Source of the DNA: Bacteroidetes bacterium CG12_big_fil_rev_8_21_14_0_65_60_17
GTDB taxonomy: Bacteria; Bacteroidota; Rhodothermia; Rhodothermales; UBA10348
NCBI GenBank assembly: GCA_002787815.1
Contig: PCUY01000076.1
Span: forward strand, 1 to 59,936
Reading direction: 5' to 3'
Length of the DNA stretch: 59,936 nucleotides
In this document: piece by piece, positions 15,303 to 28,335 of the stretch
Layout of the letters: every line of letters starts with the position of its first letter
Position numbering within the stretch: position 1 is the stretch's first letter
The notes under the pieces: model-generated
Database searches by the model: none
What the model was told of the DNA's origin: nothing
The model's input: only the letters and a program-made list of their open reading frames with translations
Position numbers and translations under genes: made by a program

Positions 15303-15417
15303 TGCGGCGGTGTGAACGTGTGTACAACAAGTTACGGCCTGTTGCGCTTGCAGACCGGATCTGCCTCGTCAACGCGGTGTACGATGGTCTGTGGAAGGAA
15401 TGAAAGGATATAACACA

Positions 15418-16317
15418 ATGCCACCCGGGATGTGGCAACGGGCTGCAGAGCGCCATGCCGGGCGGGTCTCGCGTCTGGTCGATGCGCACGTCGAGCGGAG
15501 AGCCGCGCACAAAAAAGACCCGGTCGCGGATTTTCTGTTCGAATATTACCGCTTTCGCATCTCACATCTTCGGCTGTGGTCACCGGGCCTGGGTGTCGGA
15601 CTCGCGCTTCCCGACGAACGGCAGCCTCGTTCGGATCATGGTCTCGTACCGGACCCTTGGACGACCGGTGGCGATGGGCACATCCGGCTCGATCCAACGC
15701 GCATTCCGGCGCATCGACAGGCAGGATTCATGTTCATCCGGGAACTGCTTGCGCGGACACTTGAGAGACCACCGCTTTTTGGATGCGCGGGTATGCACGA
15801 GTGGGCCATGGTCCATGGCGGTGGTGCTGTGCGGCATGCCGATGTGCCGCTCAGGCTATCACGGAGCGACATCGACAGAATCCTGGAGGAGGTGGGCCCG
15901 CGCTGCACACACTTCGATGCATTCCGGTTCTTTTCCCGTTCGGCCCGGCCCCTGAACCATATGGAACTCACGCGAAGTGACATGCTCGGCACGGAACAGC
16001 CGGGGTGCCTGCATGCCAACATGGACCTTTACAAATGGGCCTACAAGGGGTGGCCGTGGATCGGTTCGGACCTGGTAGTGGATGGTCTGGAACTCGCCTT
16101 CGAGATCCGTGAGCTGGACATGCGCGCCAGCCCGTATGATCTTCGCTCGCAGGGGCTTGAGCCCGTGCGTGTCGAGACGCCCGACGGCCGCGCCGAGTAT
16201 GCCGCCGAGCAGAAGGCATTCTGTGACAGGGCGCAGACATTGCGGCGTCGCCTGCTGTCGGCTTGGGACGTTTTGCTCGACACCATGCAGAGAGCGCCTG
16301 TGCAGAAGTGTTTATAA
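15418..16317 (+). CDS. Conserved protein of the family often labelled 3-methyladenine DNA glycosylase
   Basis: 299 residues. The N-terminal pattern (HVERR, then DPVADFLFEYYRFRISHLRLWSPG) and the interior MHEWAMVH and NMDLYKWAYK resemble a conserved family common in actinobacteria that databases often call 3-methyladenine DNA glycosylase. I know of no experimental basis for that label, and no helix-hairpin-helix glycosylase motif is visible. The start at 15418 has AAAGGA 9 bases upstream; the frame continues up to a GTG at 15391. It is rich in Trp, His and Tyr, with no signal peptide. Confidence 0.6.
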   Translation: MPPGMWQRAAERHAGRVSRLVDAHVERRAAHKKDPVADFLFEYYRFRISHLRLWSPGLGVGLALPDERQPRSDHGLVPDPWTTGGDGHIRLDPTRIPAHRQAGFMFIRELLARTLERPPLFGCAGMHEWAMVHGGGAVRHADVPLRLSRSDIDRILEEVGPRCTHFDAFRFFSRSARPLNHMELTRSDMLGTEQPGCLHANMDLYKWAYKGWPWIGSDLVVDGLELAFEIRELDMRASPYDLRSQGLEPVRVETPDGRAEYAAEQKAFCDRAQTLRRRLLSAWDVLLDTMQRAPVQKCL

Positions 16318-16381: not shown

Positions 16382-17641
16382 ATGACGGTCCCTTTTCAAG
16401 AGCACGCCGCCCCTATGTGGATTATGCTCCTGGGCCTTCTGGCAGGAACGTCCATCCACCACGCTGTCCACGCCCAGACGAAGGGCGACAGGGCGAGTCG
16501 AAACGTTACTGTCCTCGCCCAGGTGCCGCTCGGCGGACACGATGCGCTGCGGACAGTGTACCTGGACCAGCATCCGGACCGTCGGCTGGCCTACGCTGCA
16601 GGACCGAACGCCTGGCATGTCGTCGACGTATCTGACGAGACCCGGCCCCGTGTCCTCCACTCTTCACAGACGCCCGGCACGACATGGAACGCGCTCGATG
16701 GCTTCCGTCGTGATGGAAACAGTTATCTGGTCCTTGGCGGGGCGCACGTGGAAATATGGGACGTCACAGAGCCCATGCGTCCACGGCCTGCCGTCCAGCT
16801 TGAGGATGAGTCGGTTTCGGAACACGGCGTGCAGAACGTCTTTGCCTACCGCTCGGGCAGTGATGCCGGCTGGCTCTTCGTTGCTGCGGGCGGAGACATT
16901 CTGGTGTATGACATCAGTGACGTCCTGGCCGGCTCGACCGGCGCGCATACACGGATTGGCCTGCCCGAGCCGGTGCCCAACGTGGATTACGGGTTCCACG
17001 ATGCATGGGCAGCCTGGCATGCCGATACGGAGACCGATCGGTTGTACGCCTCGGGCGCAGGCGGATACTACATATTCGATATCACAGATATCACCGCACC
17101 CCGCCTCCTGACACAGGTCAATTCGGCGGCTGTCCAGGTAGGACGCTCGGTCCGGGCGACACCCGATGGTACGCACCTGGTCACAACCGCCGGATATGAG
17201 ACTGCCCCCATCCGGATTTTCGATATGCGCCCGGCGCTCGACGGCACCGTACCCGTCATGCGTACAGCGATCGGGGCATGGACCGCGAACTGGCGCCGGC
17301 CCGTTGAGCGGCACGTTGTGCGCTGGCCATTCATTTTTGTTGCCGCCTTCGAGGAAGGTCTCCAGGTCGTGAACATGATGGATCCGGTCGCGCCGTACAC
17401 CGATGCCTATTTCAGGACCTGGCAGGGGCCTGTTCCAGCTCCCGGCCAGGTTCCGGTGGGAGCCCGTGACGTGGATGTCCGCAATCACGATGGCCTGGTG
17501 GCGGTTGCCGACCAGCACGAAGGCCTGTTCCTGTTCAGGATAGAGGCATTCAACGGCTGGGATGGCCGGGGCTGGGGCTTCCCGAACGTGAGTGACGTGC
17601 AGGACTGGGAAAATGGACCTGCCGGACACGTCTCCTGGTAA
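16382..17641 (+). CDS. Secreted LVIVD-like beta-propeller protein, divergent paralogue 1
   Basis: 419 residues with an N-terminal signal peptide ending HAVHAQ. The body is made of short repeats of the kind seen in LVIVD/beta-propeller proteins (AWHVVDVSD, IWDVTEPMRPR, GYYIFDITD, PIRIFDMRPALDG). It is the first and most divergent of six tandem homologues: it keeps FHDAWAAWH, GAGGYY, RWPFIF and FNGWDGRGWG. The HNHE motif of the others is reduced (VERHVVRWP) and GGFHNIF is absent. It has no anchor at the C-terminus and is probably periplasmic or secreted. It begins the unit that leads to the multicopper oxidase. Confidence 0.72.
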   Translation: MTVPFQEHAAPMWIMLLGLLAGTSIHHAVHAQTKGDRASRNVTVLAQVPLGGHDALRTVYLDQHPDRRLAYAAGPNAWHVVDVSDETRPRVLHSSQTPGTTWNALDGFRRDGNSYLVLGGAHVEIWDVTEPMRPRPAVQLEDESVSEHGVQNVFAYRSGSDAGWLFVAAGGDILVYDISDVLAGSTGAHTRIGLPEPVPNVDYGFHDAWAAWHADTETDRLYASGAGGYYIFDITDITAPRLLTQVNSAAVQVGRSVRATPDGTHLVTTAGYETAPIRIFDMRPALDGTVPVMRTAIGAWTANWRRPVERHVVRWPFIFVAAFEEGLQVVNMMDPVAPYTDAYFRTWQGPVPAPGQVPVGARDVDVRNHDGLVAVADQHEGLFLFRIEAFNGWDGRGWGFPNVSDVQDWENGPAGHVSW

Positions 17642-17657
17642 CGATACGATCACCATC

Positions 17658-19046
17658 ATGAAAAGCATGAACACCACGCGAGTGGCCCTTTTGAGCGCCG
17701 CGCTCCTGTTGCTGGGCTCGGGCCTGCCGGCCCTCGCCCAGCTTGGCATTGAGCAGCCTCCCCATCCCCCCCCACCCGGTGAACGGGGTTCGCCCAATAT
17801 CACCGTGCTCTCCCACATTCCGCTCGGAGCGGCCGGCAGTGTGTCCGACATTGAAATCGAGCAGGAGATGGACCGGCCCTATGCCTATGTGGCCCGCCGC
17901 GTCGATGAAATCGGATTCGACATCATTGACCTCTCGAACCCGGAGCAGGCCCGTGTCATTCACCGCTGGCGTATTGAGGACCAGGAACTGCATGTAGGCG
18001 GCGCCATGGACGGCCGGTATTTCGGCTGGGAGGGACGCATCTATTATGTACAATCCGTGCAGCTGCGCCAGAGCGGACCGAATTCGGACGTTGGTGCCAT
18101 CGTGTTTGATGTGACCGATCTGCCGGAATCCTTCCACGAGGTTGGTCGCATCCGCCAGTCCGAAACACCCGGAGGGTTCCACAACATATTCATGTACGAG
18201 CACTCCGGTGGAAAGCCGCTGCTCTTTGCCACGTCGGGCCAACACGCCAAGGTGTTCGACATGGCCCGGTTCGTGGACCGTGATCAGTCCGAGATGGAAG
18301 ACGTCCTTCGGGATGAGAACCGCGAACTCGTCGGCATGGTGCCGGTCGCCCAGTCCGAGAACATGTGGTCCCGCGGTTACCACGATTTCATGGTCCAGTA
18401 CCACGCAGAAAGCGGCCAGGACCGGTTCTATGGAGGTGGGGGCAGCGGCTTCTACGTGTATGACGTGACCGACCCGGGTTCTCCCAACCTGCTCACAAAA
18501 ATACTGGATGTACCCGGTGTGTCCTGGGGACACACGTTCACCCCCACACCCGATGGCAACTTCGCGGTCGGCGAAACCGAATTCCAGTACCAGCCGCTGC
18601 GCATTTTCGATCTGCGACCGGGCTTGAGCGGTGAGGTGGACAAGATTGATCACGCGGTCGGGTACTGGCAGGCCGATTGGCGCGCCCTGGCCCACAACCA
18701 CGAAATGCGCTGGCCCTATGTGTTCGTATCGGGCTATGAAACCGGGCTCGGCGTGTTCAACATGGCGGACCCTGCCAATCCCTATACGGTCGCCTACTAC
18801 GATACCTACAACGGCGTCCACAATGATCGGCAGGCCGCTCTCGAGCGCCTGGGCAGCCCATACACATGGAATGTATACGACGGCGCCTGGGGTGTCGACG
18901 TGCGAAACGCCGATGGCCTCATTGTGATTTCCGACATGACCACCGGCTTCTGGGCGTTCCGCATGGACGGCTTCAACGGCTGGAATGGCGAGGACTGGGG
19001 CATGCCCAACGAGTCTTCCGCCCAACGAAAGTTTCTCGACGACTGA
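17658..19046 (+). CDS. Secreted LVIVD-like beta-propeller protein, paralogue 2
   Basis: 462 residues starting at the ATG at 17658, which gives a signal peptide ending PALAQ. Features shared with paralogues 3-6 include EQEMDRPYAYVARR, FDIIDLSNPEQARVI, PGGFHNIFMYEHSGG, DRFYGGGGSGFYVYDVTD, GHTFTPTPDG, FQYQPLRIFDLRPGL, NHEMRWPYVFVSGY and DGFNGWNGEDWG. Insertions relative to paralogues 3-6 include the DRDQSEMEDVLRDENREL segment. It follows paralogue 1 after 16 bp. The function is unknown; the repeats are consistent with a beta-propeller outside the cytoplasm. Confidence 0.75.
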   Translation: MKSMNTTRVALLSAALLLLGSGLPALAQLGIEQPPHPPPPGERGSPNITVLSHIPLGAAGSVSDIEIEQEMDRPYAYVARRVDEIGFDIIDLSNPEQARVIHRWRIEDQELHVGGAMDGRYFGWEGRIYYVQSVQLRQSGPNSDVGAIVFDVTDLPESFHEVGRIRQSETPGGFHNIFMYEHSGGKPLLFATSGQHAKVFDMARFVDRDQSEMEDVLRDENRELVGMVPVAQSENMWSRGYHDFMVQYHAESGQDRFYGGGGSGFYVYDVTDPGSPNLLTKILDVPGVSWGHTFTPTPDGNFAVGETEFQYQPLRIFDLRPGLSGEVDKIDHAVGYWQADWRALAHNHEMRWPYVFVSGYETGLGVFNMADPANPYTVAYYDTYNGVHNDRQAALERLGSPYTWNVYDGAWGVDVRNADGLIVISDMTTGFWAFRMDGFNGWNGEDWGMPNESSAQRKFLDD

Positions 19047-19073
19047 ACTGGGTCAATCACCAGATAAACCAAC

Positions 19074-20393
19074 ATGAAATACCCCACCTTTCTGCTTTCT
19101 CTCATGCTCCTCCTCACGGCAGGAGCGTCCACCCTGTTTGGCCAGGCCACCGTTCTGAAACGCGGATCGGACAACATGGAGGTGCTCGGCCACATTCCAC
19201 TCGGCAAGACGTCGAGCGTTACCGATATGGAGCTCGAACAGGAACTCTCCCGGCCCTATGCATACGTCAGCCGGGCATCCATCGTGGATGGCGGCCCCAA
19301 GGGCATGGACATCATTGATCTGTCAAACCCCTCAAAGCCGGAAGTCATCCTGCGCTGGCGCCTGGAAAACCAGGATCTGCTTCAGAACCGGGGGGGCATG
19401 GACGTGAAGTACTTCAAGCTCGACGGGCGCTATTATGTGGTCCAGTCCTTCGAGTTCGGTGGCGGCCCCTTCCGGGAACTCGGGGCTGTGGTTTTTGACG
19501 TGACGGGCCTTCCGGATCCGTCGAAAGTTACGGAAATTGCGCGGCTTGAAGAGCCTGATCACCCGGGCGGCTTCCACAATATTTTCATTTACAAGCACTC
19601 CAACGGCGGCGTCTACCTGTTCGCCACCGTCCGCGGCGACGATGTGCGGGTCTACGACCTCGGACGGGTCGTGACAGGTGATCTGGCCGGCGCACATGTT
19701 GCCACCATCCATAACCCCATGGAGGGCGTTTCGCAGACGTCCTATCACGACATGTATGTTGGATACCACCCTGACAGCGAAGAGGACCGTTTCTACGGCG
19801 GTGGAACCGGCGGATACTTCGTCTTCAACATCACCGACCTGCAGAATCCGGAGATCCGGGCCACACTGACGGGAATCAACGGTGTGGAATGGGGTCATAC
19901 CTTCACGCCGAGCCCGGATGGCCGTTACGCGGTGGCAGAGGCAGAATACCAATATGCTCCTCTGCGCATATTCGACCTGAAACCGGCACTCGATGGTGAG
20001 GTCTCGAATATCCGATCGCCCATCTCGGCCTGGACCGCCAACTGGAAAAACCTGTCGCACAACCACGAGGTCCGCTGGCCCTTCGTGTTCGTGTCCGGCT
20101 ATCTCGATGGATTGCAGGTGTTCAGCCTGATGGATCCTGAAAACCCGCAGACCGTCGGCTACTACGACACGTTCATCGGCGACCCCGATACAGGCCTGAA
20201 TCCCGTCATCAACGGTGCTTTCGGCGTGGATGTCCGCAATGCGGATGGCTTGATTGCAGTCAGTGACATGTCAACCGGCTTCTGGACATTCCGCATGGAA
20301 GGATTCAATGGCTGGAACGGTGAGGACTGGGGGCAGCCCGATGTATCGAGCGTTCAGAAATGGGACGAAGAGTCCAAGGACGGCACCCGATGA
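19074..20393 (+). CDS. Secreted LVIVD-like beta-propeller protein, paralogue 3
   Basis: 439 residues with a signal peptide (MKYPTFLLSLML onward, ending FGQA). From here to paralogue 6 the copies are close in length and in order of motifs: GSDNMEVLGHIPLG, EQELSRPYAYVSRA, GGMDVKYFKLDGRYYVVQS, GGFHNIFIYKHSNGG, DRFYGGGTGGYFVFNITD, AEYQYAPLRIFDLKPALDG, NHEVRWPFVFVSGY and GFNGWNGEDWG, then SSVQKWDEESKDG. Its stop overlaps the ATG of paralogue 4 by ATGA. Confidence 0.77.
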   Translation: MKYPTFLLSLMLLLTAGASTLFGQATVLKRGSDNMEVLGHIPLGKTSSVTDMELEQELSRPYAYVSRASIVDGGPKGMDIIDLSNPSKPEVILRWRLENQDLLQNRGGMDVKYFKLDGRYYVVQSFEFGGGPFRELGAVVFDVTGLPDPSKVTEIARLEEPDHPGGFHNIFIYKHSNGGVYLFATVRGDDVRVYDLGRVVTGDLAGAHVATIHNPMEGVSQTSYHDMYVGYHPDSEEDRFYGGGTGGYFVFNITDLQNPEIRATLTGINGVEWGHTFTPSPDGRYAVAEAEYQYAPLRIFDLKPALDGEVSNIRSPISAWTANWKNLSHNHEVRWPFVFVSGYLDGLQVFSLMDPENPQTVGYYDTFIGDPDTGLNPVINGAFGVDVRNADGLIAVSDMSTGFWTFRMEGFNGWNGEDWGQPDVSSVQKWDEESKDGTR

Positions 20394-21799
20394 CTTCCAC
20401 AATATCAAACTCCGACGCACGCATGAAACATCTCATTCAGCCCAAGCGGGTATTCACAGCGACAACAGCGGCCGTTTGCACGCTTGTCCTTCTCGCCACT
20501 GCCCTCTCCGCTCCGGCCATCCTGGCGCAGGACGAAACGCCCTGGACGCCGCTCAAACCCGGATCGGATAATATGGCCGTAGAGGGGCATGTGCCGCTCG
20601 GCCTACCGCTCAACACAATGGACTTGGACATAGAGCAGGAGCTGTCGCGTCCGTACGTTTACGTGTCGCGCGGCACGGTGGGCGAGGGTACGGAGCGGGG
20701 CACCGACATCATCGATATCTCTGACCCGTCGAGTCCAAAAGTCCTCAAACGGTGGCGTATTGAGAGCCAGGAACTGCATACGGGCCTGGGTGGCATGGAT
20801 GTGAAGTACTTCAAGTGGAACGACCGGTATTATGTGGTGCAGTCCACGCAGTTCGGGCCGGGCCCGAACAATGATCTGGGGGCCTACATCCTTGATGTCA
20901 CGGGACTTCCCGACGCGGCGACCGTGCGCGAAGCGGGTCGTATTCACGAGCCGGATCTGCCCGGTGGGTTCCACAATATTTTCGTGTACAAGCATTCCAA
21001 TGGCCGCGTCTATCTCTTTACGACAGTTTCGGGGCCGAATGCGCACATCTACGACCTCGGATCCATCGTGGACGGTGATTCCGGGAACGGGTTCGTTGGA
21101 ACGGTGCCCGTTCCCCTGCCCGGCGGAGAAACGAGCGGGTCCTACCACGACCTGTACGTTGCCTGGCACCCGGACACCGAAGAAGACCGCTTCTACGGGG
21201 GCGGTACGGGTGGATACTACGTTTACGACGTGACGGATGTGGAAAATCCGGAACTTGAGATAACACTCACCGGCATCACGGGCGTGCGCTACGGCCATAC
21301 ATTTACGCCCAGCCCGGATGGTCGGTACGTCGTCACGGAAACGGAGTACCAGTATGCGCCACTCCGCATGTTCGACCTGAAACCGGCGCTCGATGGGGAC
21401 GTCACCAACATCCGCCAGCCCATCTCGGCCTGGACCGCGAACTGGCAAAACCTCGTGCACAACCACGAAGTCCGCTGGCCCTTCGTATTCGTCTCGGGAT
21501 ACCATGACGGCCTGCAGGTCTTTTCCATGATGGATCCGGAGAATCCCGTCACGGTGGGCTACTATGACACCTATACGGGTTCGCGCAAGGCGGGCGTCAT
21601 GGAAGGTGCTGTCGCGAACGGCGCGTTTGGCGTGGACGTTCGCAACGCCGACGGACTGATCGTGATCAGCGACATGACCACCGGCTTCTGGACGTTCCGC
21701 ATGGAGGGGTTCAATGGATGGAACGGCGAAGACTGGGGTCAACCAAATATCTCGAGCGCACAGCAGTTTGACGAGGAATCGAAAGAAGGAACGAAATGA
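20390..21799 (+). CDS. Secreted LVIVD-like beta-propeller protein, paralogue 4
   Basis: 469 residues if it starts at 20390, where its ATG overlaps the previous stop as ATGA, as at the next two junctions. An ATG at 20423 gives a more compact signal peptide (ending AILAQ) and is the alternative. The mature protein begins DETPWTPLKPGSDNM, a segment shared with paralogues 5 and 6. All propeller motifs are present (GFHNIFVYKHSNG, SYHDLYVAWHPDTE, RFYGGGTGGYYVYDVTD, HNHEVRWPFVFVSGYHDGLQ). It ends DEESKEGTK, coupled by ATGA to paralogue 5. Confidence 0.77.
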   Translation: MTSTISNSDARMKHLIQPKRVFTATTAAVCTLVLLATALSAPAILAQDETPWTPLKPGSDNMAVEGHVPLGLPLNTMDLDIEQELSRPYVYVSRGTVGEGTERGTDIIDISDPSSPKVLKRWRIESQELHTGLGGMDVKYFKWNDRYYVVQSTQFGPGPNNDLGAYILDVTGLPDAATVREAGRIHEPDLPGGFHNIFVYKHSNGRVYLFTTVSGPNAHIYDLGSIVDGDSGNGFVGTVPVPLPGGETSGSYHDLYVAWHPDTEEDRFYGGGTGGYYVYDVTDVENPELEITLTGITGVRYGHTFTPSPDGRYVVTETEYQYAPLRMFDLKPALDGDVTNIRQPISAWTANWQNLVHNHEVRWPFVFVSGYHDGLQVFSMMDPENPVTVGYYDTYTGSRKAGVMEGAVANGAFGVDVRNADGLIVISDMTTGFWTFRMEGFNGWNGEDWGQPNISSAQQFDEESKEGTK

Positions 21800-23121
21800 G
21801 AAGCGTCGTACTCGGCGCGATCCTGATGGCATTTGCCATCACGGATCGCGCCGCAGCCCAGCAGGAAACGCCCTGGACACCACTCAACCCGGGATCTGAC
21901 AATATCGAAGTCCTGGGCCACATTCCGCTCGGGCCTATACTGAGTGTGGCCGACGTGGACCTGGAGCAGGAGTTGAGCCGGCCCTACGCCTACGTGTCGC
22001 GCATGGTCTATGGCTGGGAAGGAGACAAGGGCACGGACATCATTGATCTATCGGACCCCTCGAATCCCAGGGTCATCTACCGCTGGCGTATAGAAAACCA
22101 GGACCTGCACCAGCGCACGGGTGGCATGGACGTGAAATATTTCAAGTGGAACGGTCGGTATTATGTGGTGCAGTCGCTGCAGTTCGGGCAGGGTGGCCCA
22201 AACAACGATCTCGGGGCGGTGGTGCTCGATGTGACCGGCCTTCCGAATCCGGCTTCGGTTACCGAGGTGGCGCGCATCCATGAACCCGATTTCCCGGGAG
22301 GCTTCCACAATATTTTTGTGTACAGGCACTCGAATGGCCGCGTATACCTGTTTTCGACCGTCCAGGGGTCGACGGCGCACATCTACGACCTCGGGCTCGT
22401 TGTTGAAGGGCGTGGTGATGAGGCGCTGGTTGGCCGCGTGCCCCTTCCCCAGGAAACGTCACGCCGCGCGTATCACGACTTCTTTGTGGGCTGGCACGAG
22501 GGCTCCGAAACCGACCGGTTCTACGGCGGCGGCCGTGGCGGCTATTATGTATATGACGTAACCGACCTCGAGAACCCGGAACTGCTTGCATCGCTCACCG
22601 GCATCAATGGTGTCACGAGCGGACATACGTTCACGCCCGACCCGACGGGCCGGTACGTGATCGCAGAGACGGAGTACCAGTTTGCTCCGCTTCGCATTTT
22701 CGACCTCAAGCTGGCCCTCGACGGTGAGGTCTCCAACATCAGTCAGCCCATCGCCGGATGGACGCCCAACTGGCGCCACGTCGTGCACAACCATGAAGTA
22801 CGCTGGCCCTACGTATTCGTATCCGGATACCACGACGGACTCCAGGTCTTCAGCATGGCCGACCCCGAAAACCCGGTCACCGTGGCCTACTATGACACGT
22901 ATGTCGGGCCGTATGTCGAAGGACGTAATCCCATGTTCAATGGCGCCTTCGGCATTGACGTCCGCAACCAGGACGGGCTGATTGTGATTTCCGACATGTC
23001 CACGGGGTTCTGGACTTTCAAGATGGAAGGGTTCGACGGCTGGAATGGTGAGGAATGGGGCGTACCCGATGTATCGAGCGCACAGAAATGGGATGAGGAG
23101 TCCCGGGAGGGTTCAAGATGA
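21796..23121 (+). CDS. Secreted LVIVD-like beta-propeller protein, paralogue 5
   Basis: 441 residues. The signal peptide (1-21) ends in RAAAQ, and the mature part starts QETPWTPLNPGSDNI. The order of blocks is the same as in its neighbours: EQELSRPYAYVSRM, GTDIIDLSDPSNPRVI, GGMDVKYFKWNGRYYVVQS, GFHNIFVYRHSNG, RFYGGGRGGYYVYDVTD, TEYQFAPLRIFDLKLALDG, HNHEVRWPYVFVSGYHDGLQ and GFDGWNGEEWG. ATGA overlaps occur at both ends, so expression is coupled to paralogues 4 and 6. Confidence 0.77.
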   Translation: MRSVVLGAILMAFAITDRAAAQQETPWTPLNPGSDNIEVLGHIPLGPILSVADVDLEQELSRPYAYVSRMVYGWEGDKGTDIIDLSDPSNPRVIYRWRIENQDLHQRTGGMDVKYFKWNGRYYVVQSLQFGQGGPNNDLGAVVLDVTGLPNPASVTEVARIHEPDFPGGFHNIFVYRHSNGRVYLFSTVQGSTAHIYDLGLVVEGRGDEALVGRVPLPQETSRRAYHDFFVGWHEGSETDRFYGGGRGGYYVYDVTDLENPELLASLTGINGVTSGHTFTPDPTGRYVIAETEYQFAPLRIFDLKLALDGEVSNISQPIAGWTPNWRHVVHNHEVRWPYVFVSGYHDGLQVFSMADPENPVTVAYYDTYVGPYVEGRNPMFNGAFGIDVRNQDGLIVISDMSTGFWTFKMEGFDGWNGEEWGVPDVSSAQKWDEESREGSR

Positions 23122-24467
23122 GTGGTTTCCCGCACCTGTCGTGTTTCCTCGCGGGCCTGATTCTGATCGCCGTACCGGCAACGTCCAATCCGGCATACGC
23201 CCAGCAGCAGAATACGCCGTGGACGGCGCTGAATCCCGGGTCCGGGAACATGGACGTAGTAGGTCATCTCCCGCTCGGCCCGGTCATGACGGTGGCCGAC
23301 CTCGACATGGAGCAGGAGATGGAGCGCCCCTACGTGTACGTCTCACGGCGTGCGCGAAATGAAAGCGTGGAGCGCGGCACCGATATCATCGACATATCGG
23401 ACCCGTCGCATCCAGCCGTACTCTACCGGTGGCGCATTGAAAACCAGGAACTCCATACGGGTGCCGGCGGCGTGGACGTGAAGCACTTCAAGTGGGATGG
23501 ACGCTATTATGTCGTCCAGGGCATGCAGCTGGGGACGGGACCCAATAACGATCTCGGCGCCGTGATTCTCGATGTCACCGGGCTTCCCGATCCGGGCAGT
23601 GTCCGCGAAGTGGCGCGCATTCACGCGCCGGAAACGCCGGGTGGCTTCCATAATATTTTTGTCTACAAACACTCCAATGGACGTGTGTATCTGATGACCA
23701 CCATTCGCGGACCCGGTGCGAATGTGTATGACCTGGGTCGCGTTGTAAGTGGCGACGTTGAAAATGCGCTCGTCGCCAATATTCCCGTTCCTGATAATAC
23801 GGGTGGTGAGCGGGGAAGCTATCATGACTTCTATGCCGGCTACCATGTCGATACGGACACGGATCGCTTCTACGGCGGCGGTTCGGGTGGCTATTACATC
23901 TACGATATTTCGAATCTGGACCGGCCTGAATTACTGGTCACCATGACCGGCATCACGGGCGTATCGCGCGGGCATACGGTTACGCCCGGACCGCGAGGCC
24001 GATATGTCATCACGGAAACCGAGTACCAGTATGCACCGCTGCGCATTTTCGATGTTCAGCCTGCGCTCGACGGTGAGCAGCTCAATATCCGCACACCCAT
24101 CAGCGCCTGGACGGCCCACTGGGAAAACCTGGTGCACAACCACGAGGTGCGCTGGCCGTACGTCTTCGTATCAGGGTACCACGACGGACTGCAGGTCTTC
24201 AGTCTCATGGATCCGGAAAACCCGGTTACGGTGGGGTACTACGATACGTACACAGGGCCGCGCAGTCTGGGGTCCATGGGTGGCAATGTTGGTAACGGCG
24301 CTTTTGGCGTGGATGTCCGCAACGCCGATGGACTGATCGTGATCAGCGACATGACGACGGGTTTCTGGGCATTCCGCATGGACGGATTCGACGGCTGGAA
24401 CGGCGAGGGCTGGGGGCTGCCCGACGTATCGAGCGCGCAGAAGTGGGACAGCGTTCCGGCCCAATAG
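23118..24467 (+). CDS. Secreted LVIVD-like beta-propeller protein, paralogue 6
   Basis: 449 residues with a signal peptide ending NPAYAQ and mature start QQNTPWTALNPGSG. It retains the full block order (GGVDVKHFKWDGRYYVVQG, GGFHNIFVYKHSNG, SYHDFYAGYH, RFYGGGSGGYYIYDISN, TEYQYAPLRIFDVQPALDG, HNHEVRWPYVFVSGYHDGLQ, GFDGWNGEGWG) but lacks the acidic DEESKEG tail, ending KWDSVPAQ. It is the last of the six homologues; 85 bp separate it from the next secreted protein. Confidence 0.77.
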   Translation: MSGFPHLSCFLAGLILIAVPATSNPAYAQQQNTPWTALNPGSGNMDVVGHLPLGPVMTVADLDMEQEMERPYVYVSRRARNESVERGTDIIDISDPSHPAVLYRWRIENQELHTGAGGVDVKHFKWDGRYYVVQGMQLGTGPNNDLGAVILDVTGLPDPGSVREVARIHAPETPGGFHNIFVYKHSNGRVYLMTTIRGPGANVYDLGRVVSGDVENALVANIPVPDNTGGERGSYHDFYAGYHVDTDTDRFYGGGSGGYYIYDISNLDRPELLVTMTGITGVSRGHTVTPGPRGRYVITETEYQYAPLRIFDVQPALDGEQLNIRTPISAWTAHWENLVHNHEVRWPYVFVSGYHDGLQVFSLMDPENPVTVGYYDTYTGPRSLGSMGGNVGNGAFGVDVRNADGLIVISDMTTGFWAFRMDGFDGWNGEGWGLPDVSSAQKWDSVPAQ

Positions 24468-24517: not shown

Positions 24518-24554
24518 ATGGCGTAGAGGAGTGTGAATATGACGTCTACGCCAT
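24518..24554 (+). promoter_or_regulatory. Inverted repeat spanning a start codon, with the SD in the loop
   Basis: ATGGCGTAGA (24518-24527) pairs with TCTACGCCAT (24545-24554), a perfect 10-bp stem. The 17-base loop holds GGAG. The last two bases of the stem are the A and T of the ATG at 24553. A transcript hairpin would hide the start codon and expose the ribosome binding site. Confidence 0.6.
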
Positions 24555-25134
24555 GAATATTCCTTCTTTTGCAGTACCTGGCGTCGCTTGTGCGCTGCTT
24601 CTGGTCATCGCTTGGATGCACGAGCCTGTCACAAGCCGCGCCCACGCTCCTGCCGCGGTCATGTCGTGTGTCGATGTGGACCCCGATCCTCCCGTCTATT
24701 ACGCGATAGATCTGGTACCCACTCGCAAAGTGCCGGGTGCCAGGATGGCTGAAGGGCAGGGTGATGTGACGTTCGCGACGAGCCCGTTCGGGGTGTCTAT
24801 CTCGGAGAACGGCCAGTATGTGTACAACCTCTCGGTTGCCATGAAAAACGTCACCCTCAAAGAGGGCAAAGCGCTCGACGTGTGGGTCACAACGCCCAAT
24901 CTTGACCAGGTAAAGCATCTGGGACGCCTCGATGAGGCGTTCAGGACCGTGGGCAGCGTGGACTGGAACAAGTTCCTTGTCGTTGTCACGCTCGAGTCTG
25001 CGACTGCGGATCCGGGAAGCACATGGACCGGACCCATTGTTGCCCGAGGCATGTCCCGCAGTGGCCTCATGCATACGATGGCTGGCCATGGCCCATTCCA
25101 GAGTGAACCCTGCGCCGTCTACGGCTACCGCTGA
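24553..25134 (+). CDS. Small secreted protein upstream of multicopper oxidase
   Basis: 193 residues. The N-terminal hydrophobic segment (about 7-22) is a signal peptide or anchor. A predicted beta-rich domain follows (YVYNLSVAMKNVTLKEGKALDVWVTTP, described here by its middle at about 90-110). The C-terminus (about 170-193) contains MHTMAGHGPF and one Cys, so Met, His and Cys could bind copper, but this is inference. GAGGAG precedes the ATG by about 20 bases, within the hairpin described at 24518. The multicopper oxidase begins 5 bp after its stop. No named family is recognised. Confidence 0.65.
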   Translation: MNIPSFAVPGVACALLLVIAWMHEPVTSRAHAPAAVMSCVDVDPDPPVYYAIDLVPTRKVPGARMAEGQGDVTFATSPFGVSISENGQYVYNLSVAMKNVTLKEGKALDVWVTTPNLDQVKHLGRLDEAFRTVGSVDWNKFLVVVTLESATADPGSTWTGPIVARGMSRSGLMHTMAGHGPFQSEPCAVYGYR

Positions 25135-25139
25135 TCCAT

Positions 25140-26867
25140 ATGCTCAAACGCCTACTGCGCGCTGTCCAGGCGGGCTCCCTCCTTTTCGGAACGTTCTTTA
25201 TCATCGGGCTATCCACTTCTGCGCGGGCGCAGGATATGGATATGCACGCCGGACACAACATGGATGCGCCCGTCATGCGGGGTGACAGTGTGCTCTGGCG
25301 CATGCCTCCTATGGACATGTCCATGCCCATGCTTCCCGGCATGGACACGGAAGTGCCCATCACGGCGGCCTATCTGCCAGGTGCTGGTCTCGACCCCATG
25401 TCAGTACCCGAGGCAAAGCCTTTTGAGATCCTGGATGTGGATGATGGTGACACCATACACCTGCAGGCGGGACTCGTCAGGCGCCAGATCGGAGCGCAGA
25501 CCCTCGTCATGATGGGGTACAACGGGCAGTACCCCGGACCCCTGTTGCGTGTCAGCAGAGGCGCCAACATCAACGTCCATTTCGTCAATGCCATCGACCA
25601 GCCCACGACTGTCCACTGGCACGGTCTGCGCCTGGATGACTACCGCTTCGACGGCATCCCGGGTATTTCCCAGGCGCCTGTCGAGTCCGGTGAGAGCTTC
25701 CTGTACAAGCTCAATTTTCCGGATGAGGGGCTTTACTGGTATCACCCCCACATGCGGGAGGATGTACAGCAGGACCTCGGTCTCTACGGCAACATGTTGG
25801 TCAACCCGATATCAGCGGACTTCTATGCGCCTGTGAACCGCGAGCAGACCCTCGTTCTTGATGACATCCTCATCGACGCGAACGGGATCATTCCCTATGG
25901 CAAAAGTGCGCCCACGCACGCCCTGATGGGGCGATTCGGAAATGTCATGCTGACCAATGGCGTGACTGATTTTTCGATGGATGTGAAGCGCGGCGAAGTG
26001 GTCCGCTTCTTTCTGACCAACGTAGCAAACTCGCGTACGTTCAATGTGGTATTCGGCGGCAATCCGATCAAGGTCGTAGCCTCTGACATCAGTCGGTATG
26101 AGGAGGAAATGAGCGTAAGCAGCGTTGTAATTGCGCCGGCAGAGCGCTATATCGTGGATGTGCTCTTCGACGAACCAGGAGAGGTCACCATTACAAATAC
26201 GGTCCAGGCCATCAACCACTTCCGCGGCGAATTCTATCCTTCGGTGCAGGCACTTGCCACGGTCCGCGTCGATGATACGCCCGCGGATGTATCGCATGCG
26301 GCGGCGTTCGAAGAACTTCGTACAAACGAAGAGGTCATCGCCGACATCGACTCCTTCCGTCCCTACTTCGACAAGGCCCCGGACAAAGAATTGGAGCTCA
26401 CGGTCCGTGTGAACAACCTGCCCCTGCCAGTCATGCGCATGATGGAGATCGATACGCTTTACGTTCCACCCATCGAGTGGAACGATGCCATGCCCATGAT
26501 GAACTGGGTCTCCACGGGTGAGCAGGTCGAGTGGCTGCTTCGGGAAAAAGACACGGGGCGCGAGTCCATGGATATCAACTGGACGTTCCAGAAGGACGAC
26601 GTCGTGAAGGTCCGGATTTTCAACTCGCCACGGTCGTTTCATCCCATGAACCACCCGATCCACTTCCACGGCCAGCGGTTCCTGGTCACGCACATCGACG
26701 GGGTGGAAAACCCCAACATGGCGTGGAAAGACACGGCCATCGTTCCGGTAGGCTCAACGGTCGACTTCCTGGTCCATATGTCAAACCCCGGGAAATGGAT
26801 GGCGCACTGCCATATCGCCGAACACCTGCACGCCGGCATGATGCTCTCATTCGAGGTCACCGATTGA
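25140..26867 (+). CDS. Multicopper oxidase with Met-rich N-terminus
   Basis: Laccase/CopA-type oxidase, 575 residues, exported (signal peptide to about 31). Copper sites are complete: HWHG (159-162), WYHPH (200-204), HPMNHPIHFHG near residue 515, and HCHIAEHLHAGM (556-567), giving type 1 ligands Cys557, His562 and Met567. Residues 33-68 hold ten Met and two His, typical of proteins that bind or oxidise Cu(I). It likely oxidises a phenolic, metal or other small substrate in the periplasm with reduction of O2 to water. It is probably cotranscribed with the small protein and the six propeller genes upstream. It overlaps the convergent hydrolase gene by 11 bp. Confidence 0.93.
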   Translation: MLKRLLRAVQAGSLLFGTFFIIGLSTSARAQDMDMHAGHNMDAPVMRGDSVLWRMPPMDMSMPMLPGMDTEVPITAAYLPGAGLDPMSVPEAKPFEILDVDDGDTIHLQAGLVRRQIGAQTLVMMGYNGQYPGPLLRVSRGANINVHFVNAIDQPTTVHWHGLRLDDYRFDGIPGISQAPVESGESFLYKLNFPDEGLYWYHPHMREDVQQDLGLYGNMLVNPISADFYAPVNREQTLVLDDILIDANGIIPYGKSAPTHALMGRFGNVMLTNGVTDFSMDVKRGEVVRFFLTNVANSRTFNVVFGGNPIKVVASDISRYEEEMSVSSVVIAPAERYIVDVLFDEPGEVTITNTVQAINHFRGEFYPSVQALATVRVDDTPADVSHAAAFEELRTNEEVIADIDSFRPYFDKAPDKELELTVRVNNLPLPVMRMMEIDTLYVPPIEWNDAMPMMNWVSTGEQVEWLLREKDTGRESMDINWTFQKDDVVKVRIFNSPRSFHPMNHPIHFHGQRFLVTHIDGVENPNMAWKDTAIVPVGSTVDFLVHMSNPGKWMAHCHIAEHLHAGMMLSFEVTD

Positions 26868-28335
26868 CCTGCGCCAGGCGGTCACGAATCACGACAATCA
26901 TGGCCTTACCACTCTCGTTTTCCGGGTTGAGCAACACGGAGCGGCGGTAGAAATCCAGGCTTTTGTCCAAGTCTCCCTTGGCATACCAGGCCTCGCCGAG
27001 CGAGTCATACACGTTGTAACTCTGTGGAAACTGGACCGTGTTGAGTTCGAACATGGCAATGGCTTCATCGACGCGGCCCTGGCGCAGTAACTTGTAGCCG
27101 AGTGTATTGAGCGATTCTTCCACGAATGCATCCTCCGGCAGGTCTGCCCTGGCTGCATCATAGGCTTCAAATGCCGCCTCTATACCGCCCTCGGCCAGTA
27201 CATCGAGCAGGCGTCGTCCCAGCCGGTACCCCGGGTCATCGAGGCTTTCATAGTTGAGCCACGCGACCGACGTTGCCGGTCCCGACAGCAACAGGTCATA
27301 AAGACGATCCAGGATGAGCATACCGTTTTCACTGTTGGACAGGTACACCATGCCTTCCTCGGCATTCGGCGTGATGTAGGCATACCCACGGTATCCACCC
27401 TGATCACCCCAGTGCCAGAGCGCCTGTCCTTCGCGGCGTGGCTCCAGACCCAATCCCTCGCTCCAGTAAATTCCATCCTCGGCCGACATCTGGGGCGTCC
27501 AGAGTGCCATCCGGCCCTCTGCGTTGAGCCCCTCTCCACGCGCGAGCGCGAGAAGGAAAGCGGCGTAATCGCCAATGGTCGTGTGCAGACTGAACGCCGC
27601 ATTTGCCTCTGACGGCGTGAATTTGTTCAGGCTGTTTCCCTGTGTATCGTGGGCAACCGCGAGATGTTCGGAAAACGAGTCCTTCCAGATGAAACTGCTC
27701 CTTGTCATGCCCAATGGCTCGAACACGAACTCCCCGGCCAACGACTCCAGCGTACGGCCCGTAGCCGCCTCCATGGCCATCTGGAGGAAAACAAAACCCT
27801 CACCCGAGTATGAAAAAGACGTGCCTGGATCAAACTCGATGAGCAGGTCTCCACCCGCCGGACGCCAGTTTGGAAACCCTGTACTGTGCATGAGCGCCGT
27901 GCGGGCCGATACCTCGAAAAGGCGTGGATCGGCCACATTCCGGTCATAACCCAGATATTCGGCCAACGGTCTGTCCAGGTTGAAGAGCCCCTTGTCACTG
28001 AGCACATGCGCCAAGTACGCCACAACCGGCTTGCTGAGAAGGGCCGCCTCGAAGACCGATTCCTCCGTGACGGGCTCACCACTTACAGCACTTCGCACGC
28101 CGAGCGGAAGCGTCCACTTCAGCTCACCATTCCGGATCAGGGCGATAGCCGCACCCTCAATCCGGGCCTCTTCCATGAGGGCCACAACGTCAGCGGCCAC
28201 CACTTCCCTGTCGGGCACTTCCTGTGCCTTCGAGCTTCCTGTAGATGCGACGAGTAGCAGCAGAACGGCCGCTGCGGTCATGGACAGGCCGCGCACAATT
28301 CGGTGCTTCTTGCTATCATATGGTTCAGTCATCAT
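26857..28335 (-). CDS. Serine beta-lactamase-like protein with TPR tail, nucleophile replaced
   Basis: 492 residues: signal peptide (to about 38), a COG1680-type beta-lactamase fold (about 45-380) and a C-terminal TPR-like region (about 405-485, NVYDSLGEAWYAKGDLDKS). The usual SxxK of the family (FEAASLSKP in relatives) reads FEAALLSKP, so position 99 is Leu (codon CTT at 28041-28039) while Lys102 remains. The YSG and HWGDQGG motifs are intact. It may therefore be a non-catalytic relative or use Ser101 abnormally. It is convergent with the multicopper oxidase and divergent from the lipoprotein gene at 28403. Confidence 0.82.
   Translation of the reverse strand: MMTEPYDSKKHRIVRGLSMTAAAVLLLLVASTGSSKAQEVPDREVVAADVVALMEEARIEGAAIALIRNGELKWTLPLGVRSAVSGEPVTEESVFEAALLSKPVVAYLAHVLSDKGLFNLDRPLAEYLGYDRNVADPRLFEVSARTALMHSTGFPNWRPAGGDLLIEFDPGTSFSYSGEGFVFLQMAMEAATGRTLESLAGEFVFEPLGMTRSSFIWKDSFSEHLAVAHDTQGNSLNKFTPSEANAAFSLHTTIGDYAAFLLALARGEGLNAEGRMALWTPQMSAEDGIYWSEGLGLEPRREGQALWHWGDQGGYRGYAYITPNAEEGMVYLSNSENGMLILDRLYDLLLSGPATSVAWLNYESLDDPGYRLGRRLLDVLAEGGIEAAFEAYDAARADLPEDAFVEESLNTLGYKLLRQGRVDEAIAMFELNTVQFPQSYNVYDSLGEAWYAKGDLDKSLDFYRRSVLLNPENESGKAMIVVIRDRLAQVNR

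Follow-up and report, generated by a model that had tools for sequence, protein, structure and literature searches.

A propeller gene array next to a multicopper oxidase

In contig PCUY01000076.1 of Bacteroidetes bacterium CG12_big_fil_rev_8_21_14_0_65_60_17, of which the whole 59,936-nt stretch (hereafter the window) was analysed, an array of eight genes lies on the + strand: six homologous genes for putative secreted propeller proteins (P), one for a small secreted protein (s) and one for a multicopper oxidase (M). The propeller open reading frames run head to tail at 16382-17641 (copy 1), 17658-19046 (copy 2), 19074-20393 (copy 3), 20390-21799 (copy 4, with an alternative start at 20423), 21796-23121 (copy 5) and 23118-24467 (copy 6), with the start codons of copies 2 and 4 picked by eye. 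Copy 6 adjoins s, whose reading frame opens at a TTG (24475), has its likely start at the ATG at 24553 and ends at 25134, five bases before M (25140-26867). Signal peptides were likewise assigned by eye, from a hydrophobic N-terminus and an A-Q site.

Identities to copy 6 reach 66% (copy 5), 68% (copy 4), 61% (copy 3), 52% (copy 2) and 35% (copy 1), which excludes chance as the source of the homology. The layout is the one given in the original prediction, made from the sequence alone: the last three junctions overlap by ATGA (20390-20393 between copies 3 and 4, 21796-21799 between 4 and 5, 23118-23121 between 5 and 6), and no terminator-like site was seen on the + strand between the array genes, promoter- and terminator-like sites being present at chance frequency. 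Searches for RNA families and transfer RNAs returned nothing bearing on the array. Copies 2-6 contain the conserved blocks said to mark the paralogues, slightly altered in copy 2 (HNHEMRWP), while copy 1 lacks most of them, reading GVQNVF, DRLYASG and VERHVVRWP.

M has the three Cu-oxidase domains (Pfam Cu-oxidase_3, E=1e-31; Cu-oxidase_2, E=5e-23), a Met-rich N-terminus and a complete set of candidate copper ligands (conserved His/Cys/Met), including an axial Met, as expected of a multicopper oxidase. Its best solved relative is the laccase 4f7k (E=2.7e-49). At the same time, its best NCBIfam match, CueO, scores 152.5 bits against a cut-off of 525, and M falls far below the CopA and laccase cut-offs too. 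We describe it as a probable laccase-like multicopper oxidase.

The small protein s, a predicted beta-rich domain, is conserved in 60 homologues. In the main type of stand-alone s the tail RGMSRSGxMHTxAGHG...C is nearly invariant; it was modelled at low confidence, which would be in keeping with a segment that becomes ordered on binding. No known fold matched s significantly (best E=0.006), and comparison with family profiles gave nothing above cut-off. In several Gemmatimonadota loci a second, more distant M carries an s domain at its N-terminus, and the same fusion is found in this genome on contig C80 (L106:6616-8862, - strand), with no propeller in the 11 kb of sequence taken around it; those fusions that were read have a degraded MHTxAGHG tail. 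The fusion and the near-invariance of the tail suggest that s is a partner of M. The Met, His and Cys residues of s would be suited to copper handling, and, being fused to the oxidase elsewhere, s is a better candidate for a copper-handling accessory than the propellers. We also observed, in one Longimicrobiales genome (L121:5543-16207), an M about 8 kb from s, and, at G114:C1:2218577-2218708, a short frame between M and s that matches the tail motif of s alone.

Recurrence of the linkage in other genomes

Scanning GTDB genomes yielded 77 loci, most of them with the labels Bacteroidota/Rhodothermales, Gemmatimonadota or Acidobacteriota, of which 62 were assessable, having at least 3 kb beyond the last propeller. 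Among these, s was found within 1.5 kb in 54, M within 3.5 kb in 54 and both in 52, with M somewhere downstream (within 10 kb) in 57. The original prediction had named the lack of a recurring linkage to multicopper oxidase genes, and a structure with no propeller, as grounds for refutation; neither applies, the linkage being found across phyla (Rhodothermota, Gemmatimonadota and Acidobacteriota) and the fold being modelled as a propeller. Further loci have P-s-M in a different family of the same class, while the order is rearranged to s-M-P or s-M-P-P in other Gemmatimonadota genomes sampled; a linkage that survives rearrangement argues for a functional tie between P, s and M. Four loci labelled Gammaproteobacteria (L040, L043, L044, L046) stand among Gemmatimonadota-labelled relatives in tree order, which could reflect mislabelling or transfer. 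Among 114 genomes of the window's order, all 43 genomes with a stand-alone s have P. Counting the listed places by hand, we found s next to 40 of 43 high-scoring M genes; of the other three, one lies at a contig edge, one is divided between contigs and one is a second copy.

A wider conserved operon was rejected, as clustering of neighbouring genes showed no recurrent partner beyond P, s and M other than lineage-specific genes. Two neighbours were seen at a smaller number of loci. About 65 bases upstream of copy 1, a conserved protein is encoded at 15391-16317 (+), with no Pfam or NCBIfam match and with similarly placed homologues in about 10 loci. Convergent with M and overlapping its end lies a gene at 26857-28335 (-) for a beta-lactamase-fold serine hydrolase with tetratricopeptide repeats, homologues of which are found near M in about 15 loci.

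Propellers are also found singly. In eight genomes of one Rhodothermales family (L101-L104, L131-L133, L135) a solo propeller abuts an oxidoreductase of the Gfo/Idh/MocA family with a twin-arginine translocation (Tat)-type signal, whose nearest NCBIfam model is glycoside 3-dehydrogenase, far below cut-off; the solo propellers of L101-L104 group with position 3 in the tree. We rejected this oxidoreductase as a general partner of P, since it is confined to one family and the contexts differ elsewhere: other solo propellers stand alone or by unrelated genes, the varied contexts indicating that P is not tied to copper proteins alone. In one lineage (L025:8672-11293 and L138:6085-8706) the gene preceding a solo propeller, on its strand, by eye resembles one for a Rieske oxygenase subunit. 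Moreover, LVIVD propellers directly adjoin CopM-type DUF305 proteins in this genome (contig C30, L001:474-1244 and L001:1258-3105) and at L126:630-3019; the two places are unrelated, one being on a Paraburkholderia plasmid, and could reflect a separate copper link of the superfamily.

Fold, candidate metal site and divergence of the propellers

The description of the propellers as LVIVD-like holds as weak homology, with copy 6 the only copy above the cut-off of Pfam PF08309 (20.6 against 20.2 bits). Against TIGR04312 (choice-of-anchor B) the copies score 18-55 bits, short of the cut-off of 100 (E=4.7e-10, 2.5e-13, 1e-14 and 6.4e-15 for copies 2 to 5), and all 60 P relatives tested match this model at E<=1e-3 (best 3.5e-17), while a choice-of-anchor-B protein of the same genome (L003) reaches 420 bits. 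P stops soon after blade 7, and the Pfam and NCBIfam scans found no C-terminal surface-anchor domain or anchor family in it. Because the homology is detectable yet below cut-off, the P proteins are, to judge from these profile scores, divergent relatives of the choice-of-anchor-B/LVIVD family and not members by its threshold.

An AlphaFold2 model of copy 6 had a predicted local distance difference test score of 90.4 and a predicted template modelling (TM) score of 0.88, and blade assignment by hand gave seven blades, the last one closed by an N-terminal strand, in agreement with the propeller fold originally proposed. The top solved match in Foldseek was 5hrm (E=3.6e-11, probability 1.00, TM scores 0.56/0.51), with 16% identity across the aligned folds. 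This structure is the Sphingobium sp. TCM1 phosphotriesterase, and by sequence, too, it is the closest, though weak, match to P (E=0.02). Membership of the SBP56/SELENBP1 family was rejected, with no Pfam match up to E=1.

According to the title of its structure paper, as given in a reference list, the Sphingobium phosphotriesterase is a seven-bladed propeller with a binuclear metal centre. Its metal ligands, which we take to be E201, H258, H317, H389, E407 and H475, do read E, H, H, H, E and H in the protein sequence, and a Sphingobium plasmid yielded a near-identical coding sequence. A global hhalign comparison with P gave no usable alignment, and the blade register was fixed by a local, C-terminal profile alignment (P 355-421 with phosphotriesterase 494-569, 31% identity, E=0.0022). 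Taken in order, the partners in P would be D120, H178, H236, H286, E302 and H340, with Asp for Glu once and with a spacing of 16 residues from H286 to E302 where the phosphotriesterase has 18. On this ligand list and sequence register, the E-H-H-H-E-H positions across the blades thus recur in P as D-H-H-H-E-H. All six residues are invariant in 60 aligned P (position 1 left out), as they are in another 20 P, distant ones at about 520 bits among them, and the His/Glu motifs are present in 176 of 176 propellers outside position 1. The choice-of-anchor-B proteins of this genome have D, H, H, H, E and H in the same order, the E-to-H spacing of 38 in L003 being equal to that in P. Together the six residues make up an apparent metal-binding site in five of the six propellers; copy 3, in which it is intact as in copy 2, carries a further change, H113 to L.

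Copy 1 is degenerate, with most of these residues lost: at 120, 178, 236, 286, 302 and 340 it has A, Q, H, R, G and E, so that H236 alone is kept. In the position-1 group as a whole (24 members) nearly every member lacks H340, 19 of them having Glu there instead, and the other His residues are variable.

The positional paralogues fall into groups that span genomes, with support of 0.98-1.00 for the groups of positions 2 (a clade of 23), 3 and 4, the 'last' group being taken from tree order. This indicates that the array is old and its paralogue order kept, and we therefore rejected recent tandem expansion. Divergence fixed between four paralogue groups averages 0.67 bits in the BC and DA loops against 0.38 in the AB and CD loops (p=6e-5; p=5e-4 without the main hot spot), with no difference between loop classes in the variation within groups. 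Strand A, and hence the His residues, begin on the same face as the BC and DA loops. Paralogue differences are thus concentrated on the face that would carry the metal, which fits divergence in substrate choice and agrees with the diversified propellers of the original prediction.

Possible functions and known systems

The best explanation, to which we give somewhat less than an even chance, is that diversified extracytoplasmic, metal-dependent propeller enzymes work with the laccase-like M, assisted by s. The eight genes would then encode one secreted module. The s protein may dock on M, with the Met/His-rich segments of the two proteins as a possible interface, and help to assemble M or load it with copper. 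Each intact propeller would be an enzyme in which D120, H178, H236, H286, E302 and H340 hold a binuclear centre, probably of Mn or Zn, at one end of the central channel as in the Sphingobium phosphotriesterase, and would hydrolyse its substrate, or carry out an elimination on it, before or after oxidation by M. The array may have started as a one-propeller cassette whose copies diverged mainly in the metal-face loops to give a set of substrate specificities, with copy 1 becoming a non-catalytic partner or scaffold. Within this account the computed results are the gene order, its recurrence, the s-M fusion, the predicted fold, the invariant residues with their loss in copy 1, and the bias of paralogue differences to two classes of loop; that a metal is bound and which one, the catalysis and substrate, what s does and a common pathway for the parts are inferred from them.

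Several points weigh against this explanation. The phosphotriesterase register depends on blade order and one weak local alignment; the ligand list was checked for residue type alone; and the putative site is matched by order and residue chemistry, not by ligand distances. The loop test counts alignment columns as independent. P is found alone or by other oxidoreductases, so that M is not obligatory, and the neighbour clustering showed no consistently linked substrate or catabolic pathway gene. Furthermore, metal-binding propellers need not be hydrolases, as seen in SELENBP1, a copper thiol oxidase (PMC10362175).

Copper homeostasis is an unlikely alternative, in which M would oxidise cuprous copper in the manner of CueO, s would act as a copper chaperone and the propellers would bind or buffer copper in the periplasm. 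The Met-rich M with its axial Met, CueO as its best if far from sufficient NCBIfam match, the Met/His tail of s and the existence of copper-binding propellers such as SELENBP1 (PMC10362175) are all consistent with it. However, the P site contains Asp and Glu and resembles the centre of a hydrolase, genes for copper export or sensing were not recurrently linked, and buffering poorly explains why diversified copies are kept in order. Delivery of copper by the propellers, part of the working guess in the original prediction, is not supported: the invariant residues match the six positions taken as ligands of the phosphotriesterase's binuclear centre, and P also occurs without an adjoining multicopper oxidase; overall, the original interpretation is partly supported.

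We regard as rather improbable a route in which Mn(II), bound at the D/E-H-H-H-E-H site of the propellers, is handed to M for oxidation. The matched site in the Sphingobium phosphotriesterase is said to work with Mn. The mnxG operon couples a Mn-oxidising multicopper oxidase with a propeller and SCO1/SenC proteins (PMC8218464; PMC11409713). At the same time, MnxG is another oxidase and its propeller is, as annotated, of the YVTN/lactonase type, P without M exists, and a metal ion needs no diversified substrate-face loops. Equally doubtful is a pure scaffold, with non-catalytic propellers binding a ligand or holding M or a polymer at the cell surface and the conserved residues being structural: many propellers act as scaffolds, and copy 1 has lost most of the site while its position is kept in 24 loci, but the other copies, distant ones included, keep polar residues of ligand type without variation, and the paralogues differ mainly on one face. 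Both copper homeostasis and a pure scaffold are less well supported than the account based on metal-dependent enzymes.

No published description of a P-s-M system was found in the open literature searched, in line with the original prediction, which knew of no described system of this kind. It is a tentative possibility that the array represents a new extracytoplasmic oxidative-hydrolytic system, present in at least three phyla and unpublished in that literature, in which ordered binuclear-metal propeller enzymes that differ in specificity, M and the accessory s act on a shared class of substrates. If so, a large secreted propeller family now named by its anchors alone would gain a testable function, the metal centre of an unusual phosphotriesterase would be old and widespread, and a phosphotriesterase-type centre would be tied to a copper oxidase in bacteria most of which are uncultured. 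The degenerate copy 1 and the fixed gene order offer a natural series for studies of propeller-enzyme diversification.

The nearest published arrangement found in the open literature searched is the Pseudomonas mnxG operon, in which the multicopper oxidase gene is followed by those for a propeller protein and SCO1/SenC copper chaperones (PMC8218464; PMC11409713); this precedent keeps Mn(II) oxidation among the rival readings. It differs in the oxidase and propeller families as annotated and in having no propeller array; in place of an SCO chaperone and a YVTN/lactonase propeller, the array described here has s and LVIVD/TIGR04312-matching P beside the oxidase. SELENBP1 (methanethiol oxidase) is also a seven-bladed propeller, with conserved His/Asp/Glu residues proposed to bind metal in the central cavity, but its motifs are HXXH and XHHX (PMC10362175), and P has no Pfam match to SBP56. 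M shares the three Cu-oxidase domains and the full candidate ligand set with CueO and the laccases, while differing from them in its scores far below their cut-offs and in its tie to s by gene order or fusion. The choice-of-anchor-B/LVIVD proteins of this genome share the ordered D-H-H-H-E-H motif with P, which differs in scoring below the family cut-off, in ending without a C-terminal anchor and in being linked to s and M. The Sphingobium sp. TCM1 phosphotriesterase (haloalkylphosphorus hydrolase, 5hrm/5ioj) had no multicopper oxidase beside it in the one plasmid locus examined, and shares with P the seven-bladed fold and, by order and chemistry, the six positions taken as metal ligands.

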